This document shows, in pieces, positions 8,214 to 10,266 of a DNA stretch of 14,636 nt. Each line of letters starts with the position of its first letter. Within the stretch, counting starts at the first letter, position 1. The notes under the pieces were generated by a model. It did not search any database and was not told the DNA's origin. It saw only the letters and a list, made by a program, of their open reading frames with translations. The position numbers and the translations under genes are program-made. The DNA is from Candidatus Bathyarchaeota archaeon (GTDB lineage Archaea; Thermoproteota; Bathyarchaeia; 40CM-2-53-6), in assembly GCA_005888755.1 (NCBI GenBank), contig VBBQ01000022.1, positions 1 to 14,636 on the forward strand. The letters are read 5' to 3'.

Positions 8214-8263
8214 CCGGAAGCCCCCCGAATTCTTTTTTCAACGCCCGTTCGTAGCGACCCGTA

Positions 8264-8285
8264 GGGCCCGTAGCTCAGCCAGATC
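8264..8285 (+). repeat. Left direct repeat: copy of the tRNA-Lys 5' half
   Basis: Twenty-two bases identical to 9484-9505. The repeat starts at tRNA nucleotide 1 (GGGCCCG acceptor strand) and contains positions 8-9, the D-stem GCTC, the D-loop AGCC exon end and the first five bases of the D-loop intron (A plus GATC). Identity stops at both edges: 8263 is A against T at 9483, and 8286 is A against C at 9506. The bases that follow (8286 onward) do not continue as a tRNA. It marks the left end of the 1.2-kb insertion. Confidence 0.9.
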
Positions 8286-8286
8286 A

Positions 8287-8326
8287 CCTTCGCATATCTT
8301 CGAATGTTATAGTTGCAGGTCGAAGG
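8287..8326 (+). repeat. Inverted repeat at the left end of the element
   Basis: CCTTCG (8287-8292) and CGAAGG (8321-8326) can form a six-pair stem directly after the left tRNA half. The loop contains GTTATAG (8306-8312), a possible TATA box for the nuclease gene, with a start near 8336 and AGGAA ahead of the GTG. It may be an intron-type stem, a terminus of the element or an operator. Confidence 0.4.
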
Positions 8327-8348
8327 GTAGACTGGAAGCCAGGAACTC

Positions 8349-9455
8349 GTGAGCGCGGGCAGAGCAGTATTTGCTAAGGGAAAGCAAAGAGAATTTCTCA
8401 AGCACGCAAAAGAATTGTCTAAGCTGAATTGGGAGCTTTTTGCCTCTCATATCGGAATATCCAGCTACAACGTTCTGAGAGCTACCTATCTTAATGAACG
8501 CAACACACTGCCTGTCGCCGTCCTTAGCAAGGCTGCTCATTTGTTCAAAGATGCAACGCTGTGCAGTCAGATTGTAGGTTTTCGCCCTGCGCATTGGGGA
8601 CAGTCCAAGGGAGGGAGTATCTCTTTGAAGAAATGGCATGCGACAATGCGCAAGAAACCGAAGTCATATCACGACCTACAGAGCCGTCGCTTCCTCAAGG
8701 CTCGGTCCTATAATTACGAGACGTCTATGGCTATGAAGTGCGGTCTCTACACGAGTTGCTGGTTGCCGAGAATCTCATTGCCAATGGGGTCTCACACTGG
8801 TATGAACCAGCTTTACGCTGCGGAAACCACACTCTGTTTCCAGATTTCCTCGCAAACACCGTTTTCGGAAAGGTCCTGGTCGAGGTTTCTGGTTTTCGCT
8901 CTCCGCGGACATGGATACGGTTACTGGAAAAACTCCGGCTGTACCTGTCGTACAAAGCGGCAGATCGAATATTGGTCGTTCATCTCGAACAGGATAGAGA
9001 AACTGCGTTAAAGGTTGCCAGACAACTAGGTTCACTCGTTAAGATGATTCCTATCAGCGACATGGGAGATCTAATTCACACCGTTACAAGTTCAAAAGAC
9101 TCACTCGGGAATGTTCGAATCATATCGATAGCACAGGCCCTCCAGGCTTGCCGCCGTATGAGCGGGAAACGATTTCATTGGTATCAACTGATTCAGAAAG
9201 TGCCCAAAGGAAGAATGGGTTGCTATTCTGGTCCGTTGTGGCCTCTCACGGGCCGACATTGAGAAGGTTCGAACGGTAACTGATCTGAAAAAGCGATTGA
9301 TTGAGGCGACCCGCCTAGCCGATAGCAATCGGCTCGTTCCACGGCAAGCCATGGTCGAAATGATCGCAGGTGCTTATCAGAGTTCTGTGTGCCACCACTT
9401 CGGTTCAATGAGTAATCTTGTTCTTGCCGCCCTGGAGGAGCTGGGAAAAGCTTAG
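8349..9455 (+). pseudogene. PD-(D/E)XK homing-endonuclease-like protein, broken by two compensating frameshifts
   Basis: The frame from GTG 8349 gives an HTH-like N-terminus (KLNWELFASHIGISSYNVLR, then RPAHWGQSKGGSISLKKWH). Near 8714-8722 the coding signal moves back one frame: VYGYEVRSLHELLVAENLI, HWYEPAL, then FPDFLANTVFGKVLVEVSGF. The Asp of PDF (about 8843) and the Glu of VEV (about 8882), with an upstream Glu in SLHE, make a PD-(D/E)XK core; the usual E-x-K lysine is Ser, but a Lys in the following helix may replace it. Near 9202-9210 (CCCAAAGG) the frame returns and ends in DLKKRLIEATRLADSN plus FGSMSNLVLAALEELGK, a pattern like the homing-endonuclease-associated repeat. The two shifts cancel, giving about 368 residues. 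It could be a decaying gene, assembly error or recoding. I see no close match to a named enzyme. Confidence 0.72.
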
Positions 9456-9483
9456 CTAGGGTTTGAGACTAATCAATTTCTGT

Positions 9484-9505
9484 GGGCCCGTAGCTCAGCC
9501 AGATC
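9484..9505 (+). repeat. Right direct repeat: tRNA-Lys 5' half, part of the complete tRNA gene
   Basis: Identical to 8264-8285. Here the sequence continues into the rest of the D-loop intron and the full tRNA. Confidence 0.9.
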
Positions 9506-9525
9506 CCAACATGTGGATCCTGAAT
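9501..9525 (+). other. tRNA-Lys intron 1, in the D-loop, 25 bases
   Basis: BHB motif: central helix TCAG 9495-9498 with CTGA 9520-9523, bulges CCA (9499-9501) and ATA (9524-9526), inner helix GATCC 9502-9506 with GGATC 9515-9519, and a loop of eight. Cutting each bulge after its second base gives the D-loop AGCC/AGGTA. Repeated bases at the ends would allow a shift of one or two positions, but the motif favours these ends. Confidence 0.85.
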
Positions 9526-9539
9526 AGGTAGAGCACCGG

Positions 9540-9566
9540 AGGAGCGGCATCAAATGCTCTGGTGAG
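9540..9566 (+). other. tRNA-Lys intron 2, in the anticodon stem between positions 30 and 31, 27 bases
   Basis: Full BHB: outer helix AGAG 9530-9533 with CTTT 9568-9571, central helix CACC 9534-9537 with GGTG 9561-9564, bulges GGA and AGG, inner helix GGAGC 9541-9545 with GCTCT 9556-9560. Splicing joins CCGG to G and completes the anticodon stem. Confidence 0.88.
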
Positions 9567-9573
9567 GCTTTTA

Positions 9574-9587
9574 GCCTTCAGAGGGAC
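9574..9587 (+). other. tRNA-Lys intron 3, canonical position 37/38, 14 bases
   Basis: The central helix pairs CTTT 9568-9571 with AGGG 9582-9585 (two G-U pairs), with bulges TAG and ACA. Removal gives the loop CTTTTAA closed by CCGGG/CCCGG. At 14 bases it is very short. If it were shifted by one, base 38 would be G in place of A. Confidence 0.8.
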
Positions 9588-9657
9588 ACCCGGCTGTCCC
9601 GGGTTCAATTCCCGGCGGGCCCGCCAACATACGGGCGTTTGGTTGTCACTGTTTCCG

Positions 9658-10266
9658 CTAGGATGGTTTTGTTGGCAGGGGTGGGAGCCGAGGCTTGTCA
9701 GGACCTTCGTAGCGGATTAGGCCCTTCGCTTCCAAGGTTTCTTGTAACTTGTTTACCGCGATATGTACTTGGATCTCCTTTTTCGCTCCAGTGCAAACCA
9801 ACTTCCCGCTAGCAAACACAAGAATCACTACCTTCGGCTCGTCCATCCTGTAGATCAGTCCTGGAAACTGTTCCGGTTCATACATGGTCTTCTTCAAACC
9901 ATATACTGCTTTTTCTAGATCAATGTGGCCTCCAAGTCCACACGATGCGACAATGTTCTGTATCATGATTTCTGGCCTGCCAAGGATCACGATTCCGTCC
10001 CTCTTCAGTTCGTCAACGACTTTCAAAACAGCCTGGCGTGCTTGGCGTTCAGATTTTGCCCCGGTGCACACCATTTTTCCGGAGCTGAAAATTAATGTTG
10101 CAGTTTTTGGCTTCTTGAGTCTGTAGACTAGGCCTGGAAATTGTTCGGGTCGGTATTCGACTCCAGGGAAGACTCGGACGATTGCGTTGAGGTCTATTCT
10201 CTGCTTCAGTGTGGCTGAAGCAACCACGTTCTCGATATTGATGAAAGCCCTGTTTTTATCTGACAA
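9658..10266 (-). CDS. tbp: TATA-binding protein (TBP)
   Basis: A general transcription factor that binds promoter TATA boxes and recruits TFB and RNA polymerase. The 202-residue protein is a clear two-fold repeat: INIENVVASATL...FPGVEYRPEQFPGLVYRL...TLIFSSGKMVCTGAKS in repeat 1 (about 8-95) and IMIQNIVASCGLG...YEPEQFPGLIYRM...ILVFASGKLVCTGAKK in repeat 2 (about 98-185). The DNA-contacting FPGLVYR and SGKxVCTGAK segments occur in both halves. A proline-rich tail (GPDKPRLPPLPTKPS) extends past the fold in place of the acidic tail common in some archaeal TBPs. The start is a TTG, as no ATG is available before the conserved region. It converges on the tRNA-Lys gene, whose CCA ends 31 bases from the TBP stop. 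Confidence 0.95.
   Translation of the reverse strand: MSDKNRAFINIENVVASATLKQRIDLNAIVRVFPGVEYRPEQFPGLVYRLKKPKTATLIFSSGKMVCTGAKSERQARQAVLKVVDELKRDGIVILGRPEIMIQNIVASCGLGGHIDLEKAVYGLKKTMYEPEQFPGLIYRMDEPKVVILVFASGKLVCTGAKKEIQVHIAVNKLQETLEAKGLIRYEGPDKPRLPPLPTKPS

Follow-up and report, generated by a model that had tools for sequence, protein, structure and literature searches.

Why does an archaeal contig carry the beginning of a tRNA-Lys gene twice, in direct orientation, with a single nuclease-like gene between the two copies? The window analysed here is the whole of contig VBBQ01000022.1 (GCA_005888755.1, labelled G000:C21) of a Candidatus Bathyarchaeota archaeon from soil, 14,636 nt long; all genomes compared with it are apparently metagenome assemblies. 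An exact direct repeat of 22 nt is found at 8264-8285 and 9484-9505, at a spacing of 1220. We estimate the chance of an exact 22-nt repeat in 14.6 kb at about 1e-5, as an order of magnitude. The downstream copy opens a complete tRNA-Lys(UUU) gene, while the upstream copy is a 5' fragment only, in which exon 1 covers 8264-8280 (GGGCCCGTAGCTCAGCC), Table 1. Default ARAGORN makes no call for the complete tRNA, which is no surprise given its three introns. Essentially one gene fills the space between the repeat copies. No integrase or other cargo was seen there, either in the window or at the two other element-bearing loci (G004 and G010), and Rfam gave no match to a group I intron core in the window. 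The initial annotation had described a 22-base repeat of the tRNA-Lys 5' end bracketing about 1.2 kb that is nearly all one nuclease gene, without integrase or cargo, and the repeat, the Rfam match and the gene content confirm this description. It overlooked the 25-nt intron in the D-loop of the complete tRNA.

Table 1. Coordinates of the features of the tRNA-Lys locus in the window.
Feature	Position	Strand	Basis
5' fragment of tRNA-Lys(UUU), left half of the presumed target	8264..8285	+	Repeat and orthologue comparison
Homing-nuclease-like gene, decayed	8349..9455	+	Intact orthologue L003:1111-2223
N-terminal HTH-type module ending WGQxKGG	8361..8633	+	hhalign probability 97.6, E 3.4e-12
Putative PD-(D/E)XK catalytic motif PDF-x11-EVSGF, weakly Bax1-like	8840..8896	+	Weak matches
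Complete tRNA-Lys(UUU), three introns; CCA at 9624-9626	9484..9623	+	Rfam (37.6 bits, E 6.6e-6), intron parse and relatives
D-loop BHB intron (AGATCCCAACATGTGGATCCTGAAT), 25 nt	9501..9525	+	BHB parse and intronless alleles
Second intron, anticodon stem, BHB motif	9540..9566	+	BHB parse
Third intron, canonical position 37/38	9574..9587	+	Read by hand; sequence and tRNA consensus alignment

The convergent neighbour of the tRNA-Lys gene is a TATA-binding-protein-like gene (window 9658-10266). This neighbourhood is kept in ten species, and other congeners have tRNA-Lys at a different locus.

Three states of the locus are found among the sister species. The element and the D-loop intron occur together in three species of one genus, the window genome (G000), G004 (L002) and G010 (L003). 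The nuclease gene is absent from seven relatives; four of these (G014, G013, G007 and G017) have the D-loop intron, and the other three (G005, G006 and G015) have neither nuclease nor intron, with the upstream flank joined directly to an intact tRNA. The D-loop intron, of 24-25 nt, is thus present in every element-bearing site and never in the empty ones. An empty site joining the flank that ends at 8263 straight to the complete tRNA had been predicted, and it is seen in G005 and G006. According to a FastTree phylogeny of the locus, in which the mutual placement of G007, G015 and G017 is weak (0.26), G010 and the empty G006 are sisters, 94.3% identical across the locus. The nuclease genes of the carriers are 89% and 82% identical, about the same as their flanks, and the carriers may therefore descend vertically from old insertions and not from recent transfers. 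The gene may thus have been inherited vertically in these species and lost in others.

The D-loop intron has the bulge-helix-bulge (BHB) structure of archaeal tRNA introns, with a 4-bp central helix (UCAG/CUGA), 3-nt bulges on opposite strands (CC^A and AN^A) and an inner helix (GAUCC/GGAUC). Across 13 distinct introns from the order, base pairs form in 99.1% of cells, and both helices show compensatory exchanges, such as CG to UA in step with an exon change from GCTC to GCTT. The predicted splice product, GCTCAGCC-AGGTAGAGC, is a canonical tRNA and exactly the allele of the empty sites, whose intronless D-arm reads AGCCAGGTAGAGC.

The left fragments tell which allele the element entered. In G010 the left fragment reads GGGCCCGTAGCTCAGCCAGGT and then TACTTTCG. 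It ends in AGCCAGGT and TACTTTCG, i.e. it continues with AGGT as the intronless tRNA does, to 4 nt past the intron site, before the element begins. It follows that the insertion was into a gene without the intron, and that the restored copy brought the intron in. The sister genome G006, empty and intronless, matches what is expected of such a pre-insertion state, and the left fragment in G004 is apparently intronless too. We also considered an intron-only state older than the nuclease, which for G010 is opposed by the intronless left fragment. In the window the fragment ends in AGATC, which differs from the intronless version in G010 by transitions. The last bases have therefore drifted, and the 22-nt identity slightly overstates the duplicated length: the match is exact as annotated, but its last 5 nt are partly accidental. 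Taken together, the junctions agree with a nuclease that would cut the intronless and not the intron-bearing allele.

The intron also appears to have passed from one species to another. G007 and G010 have identical D-introns despite being only 84.6% identical to each other. For about 50 nt after the intron, including the second intron, G007 resembles G006 and G010, after which its sequence is again like that of its clade mates (G015, G017). A short tract of gene conversion with its start at the D-loop would produce this pattern. An identical D-intron is also found in G000 and G013, even though the nearer relative of G000 is G014. D-introns of similar type, with no nuclease found, occur in other genera of the same order (G018, G021, G025), and D-introns are present at another locus, again without a nuclease, in G002, G003, G011, G012 and G016. 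In G021 two different tRNA-Lys genes (L105 and L109) contain an identical D-loop intron, AGACCTTCACGGTCCTGAAA, which suggests copying between tRNA genes of that genome.

The nuclease-like gene of the window is a pseudogene. It starts with GTG, has frameshifts near 8730 and 9208, and three frames are needed to reach the stop codon TAG at 9453-9455. The orthologue in G004 has a frameshift and a stop of its own, and the one in G010 is intact from its ATG and encodes 370 aa. The dN/dS ratio is 0.19 between the window gene and the G010 gene and ranges from 0.19 to 0.39 over the carriers; the protein was therefore kept under purifying selection before it decayed.

The first 95 residues of the protein, an HTH-like module, match the N-termini of LAGLIDADG proteins from other archaea (L065, E 3e-8; L067, E 2e-7), and profile-profile comparison with these relatives agrees, Table 1. 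The N-terminal module is all that the window protein has in common with the LAGLIDADG enzymes; the catalytic parts differ. We found no LAGLIDADG motif or domain in the window protein, and the G010 protein has no Pfam match, whereas L065 and L067 match PF14528. Searches of Pfam, NCBIfam and PHROGs gave no confident family. Alignments of the PDF-x11-EVSGF motif to the Bax1 nuclease were obtained with three PDB entries and with NCBIfam, at weak E-values (0.05-1). The motif lacks the canonical lysine (no ExK), so that the PD-(D/E)XK call rests on one motif and weak Bax1-like matches. The protein is probably a PD-(D/E)XK enzyme of the Bax1-like type, an unproven and weak assignment. AlphaFold models of the whole protein and of the catalytic part were too poor for a structure search (pLDDT 36). 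No relatives were found in viral contigs, and a scan of genome contigs returned nothing beyond BA_25, which is the G010 contig itself, and CSMAG_405. Compared with the earlier proposal of a PD-(D/E)XK homing-nuclease gene, the gene is decayed here, the fold assignment is weak, and most relatives of the N-terminal module are LAGLIDADG enzymes.

Relatives of the L065 LAGLIDADG enzyme were found in 120 of 327 genomes when the L065 organism's own phylum was searched. At 33 of the 34 loci examined, all but L140, the enzyme gene is immediately followed by a tRNA gene in the same orientation (22 found by Rfam, and 11 recognised by eye from acceptor and T-arm sequences). The median gap from enzyme gene to tRNA is -10 nt, so that the stop codon of the enzyme usually overlaps the start of the tRNA. 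A significant tRNA 5' fragment is present upstream of the enzyme gene at nine of these 34 loci. At L122, L138 and L139 the fragment equals the spliced tRNA to 3-4 nt past the intron site, as at L003. By a strict BHB parser ten of the 34 adjacent tRNAs, of the types Gln, Glu, Val, Pro and Arg, contain a D-arm intron, and about nine further ones seem, as judged by eye, to carry one. In five genomes strict D-arm introns were counted in 5/9 adjacent tRNAs and in 5/154 others (Fisher p = 3e-5), the latter being an approximate background since it relies on length screening of Rfam hits. Seven enzyme-adjacent tRNAs are without a D-arm intron (L125, L126, L129, L136, L141, L143 and L144), and protection there would have to work otherwise or has been lost.

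In the phylum of the window, two LAGLIDADG genes (L067 and L071) are divergent from upstream tRNA-Glu genes with introns at 10/11. These loci speak for an association with tRNA genes that carry D-arm introns, but their layout is not exactly the same. They (L067 1229-1420 and L071 2480-2750) belong to two archaeal families, their enzymes are 41% identical, the tRNA-Glu introns are of the BHB type, and an extra copy of GCTCCGG precedes each tRNA-Glu. Of the matches from a final profile search of this phylum, many fell within rRNA genes or within reading frames of great length, which are probably inteins, and had no tRNA close by; linkage to tRNA genes is therefore not general to LAGLIDADG genes.

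Several other arrangements were observed. The order of fragment, enzyme gene and tRNA occurs a second time in the genome of the window, with a LAGLIDADG gene (L209 1310-2390, G000:C13), and a further such locus is L211 (G014). At L209 the fragment contains a D-intron-like hairpin, and the complete tRNA is without that intron but has long downstream introns. In three genomes (G399, G411 and G415; L213, L214 and L215) ARAGORN places a LAGLIDADG frame wholly within a tRNA-Phe intron of about 655-665 nt. The tRNAs 3' of the LAGLIDADG gene at L148 (2085-2200) and L139 (2449-2620), on the strand of the enzyme gene, seem to have T-arm introns too.

The initial annotation had proposed a homing unit dedicated to a tRNA gene, and had suggested asking whether homologues also sit beside tRNA genes with partial tRNA repeats. 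The empty sites in G005 and G006 and the tRNA-adjacent relatives, several with 5' fragments, support this. Two outcomes had been named that would speak against it, nuclease-less relatives with both tRNA halves and homologues that never lie beside tRNA genes, and neither occurred.

We consider it probable that the locus in the window is a tRNA-gene homing unit, now decayed, whose mode of action is collaborative homing. The nuclease would cut the D-arm of the intronless tRNA-Lys, presumably close to AGCC/AGGT. Repair from an element-bearing chromosome would then copy in the nuclease gene and a replacement tRNA 5' half, giving the arrangement seen in the window, and the old 5' half is stranded upstream as a fragment, as comparison with the empty sites indicates. 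An intron at the cut site would be needed because a restored ordinary tRNA would rebuild its own target and be cut. We infer that the BHB intron of the replacement half, by splitting the recognition sequence, would hide the restored tRNA from the nuclease, and that the splicing machinery would remove the intron from the RNA and keep the tRNA functional. The nuclease decays later, as it has in the window, and recombination between the direct repeats may delete it and leave the intron-only tRNA found in four relatives, which would be resistant. Several observations weigh against this reading: the nuclease genes diverge about as much as their flanks, D-introns occur in G018, G021 and G025 with no nuclease found, some enzyme-adjacent tRNAs have no D-arm intron, the D-intron-like sequence at L209 is in the fragment and not in the complete tRNA, and the PD-(D/E)XK assignment is weak.

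The same footprint of tRNA fragment, insert and restored tRNA is classic for integration, and a relic of a pNOB8-type element would arise if an attP with an intron-bearing tRNA 5' half recombined with an attB tRNA and the integrase was later lost. Sugahara et al. 2012 proposed this for a Caldiarchaeum tRNA-Thr with an extra 24/25 intron (PMC3293823). We regard it as unlikely here, since an integrase is absent at all three loci, the sole conserved gene is nuclease-like and under purifying selection, the tRNA-adjacent relatives of its N-terminal module are LAGLIDADG enzymes, and the fragments at these loci, which come from several types of tRNA, stop 3-4 nt beyond the intron site.

We give just as little weight to an old, vertically inherited D-loop intron unrelated to the nuclease, with the nuclease gene merely inserted alongside and the intron lost from the intronless relatives. 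The nuclease-free D-introns in the other genera and at the other locus would fit it, but the left fragment of the G010 element is intronless, identical introns occur in distant species together with the apparent conversion tract, and in another phylum D-arm introns are overrepresented next to enzymes whose catalytic domain is a different one. That the structure is an assembly artefact or a chance tandem duplication is far less probable still: the genomes are apparently metagenome assemblies and the G004 tRNA has an N-run, but the same structure recurs in three separately assembled species that are 82-89% identical, and comparable layouts are found in other archaeal groups.

Beyond this locus, we lean slightly towards a broader reading of collaborative homing, in which tRNA-gene homing units would be a widespread but unrecognised class in archaea, with a shared N-terminal module, interchangeable LAGLIDADG or Bax1-like PD-(D/E)XK domains and tiny D-arm BHB introns as self-protection, and would be a main engine that spreads non-canonical tRNA introns and stray tRNA fragments. 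Homing of this kind gives a single account of D-arm introns, of stray 5' fragments of tRNAs and of LAGLIDADG genes beside tRNA genes, and may explain how odd tRNA introns spread in archaea. The gain and spread of non-canonical archaeal tRNA introns is stated as unknown in PMC4090602. Two open-licence reviews (PMC4090602 and PMC4033280) make no mention of homing for tRNA introns, and one of them calls the transposition mechanism unknown; a published link may exist. Randau and Soll, as cited in PMC4090602, suggested that introns shield tRNA genes from mobile elements, an idea for which direct evidence was scarce. At the present locus susceptible, occupied and intron-only alleles are found together, with a preserved intronless pre-insertion fragment and an apparent interspecies conversion tract, which puts the question within reach of a test that needs a single protein and a pair of short DNA substrates.

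I-Ssp6803I is a PD-(D/E)XK enzyme of a group I intron in a cyanobacterial tRNA-fMet gene. The window unit resembles it as a homing enzyme, putatively of the PD-(D/E)XK type, aimed at a tRNA gene. I-Ssp6803I is encoded in a self-splicing group I intron, unlike the window enzyme. In rRNA, the intron endonuclease of Pyrobaculum oguniense causes co-conversion of a short hairpin intron, as described in PMC4496867. By that description the endonuclease cleaves a site that has no intron, and a short BHB intron nearby is transferred with it, as proposed here, but the enzyme is encoded within an intron and its target half is not duplicated.

The layout itself has a published counterpart. The tRNA-Thr(GGU) locus of Caldiarchaeum subterraneum has a 5' fragment and then about 1.8 kb containing a single ORF that immediately precedes the tRNA, the complete tRNA has an extra D-arm intron at 24/25, and an intron-poor allele exists in the same population (Sugahara et al. 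2012, PMC3293823). By the published description this is the same order of fragment, ORF and complete tRNA with an extra D-arm intron. It was read differently, as a pNOB8-type plasmid-like integration or a transposable element, with an ORF called recombinase-like by SVMProt (PMC3293823). As regards the suggestion that a PD-(D/E)XK unit on an archaeal tRNA gene would be new, an analogous layout was thus published in 2012 with another interpretation.

The closest mechanistic parallel is the cyanophage nuclease F-CphI and the psbA group I intron, where homing is collaborative and the intron prevents self-cleavage (PMC6083498, citing Zeng et al. 2009). As in that account, a free-standing nuclease-like gene adjoins an intron-bearing target gene, intronless nuclease-free alleles exist in close relatives (G005, G006 and G015), and the nuclease would let the intron invade them. 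Unlike the phage system as described there, the intron here is of the BHB type, 25 nt long, and lies in a tRNA gene on the chromosome of an archaeon; the 5' half of the target is duplicated, and the element sits inside its own target. We would file the unit in the window as a probable variant of collaborative homing.
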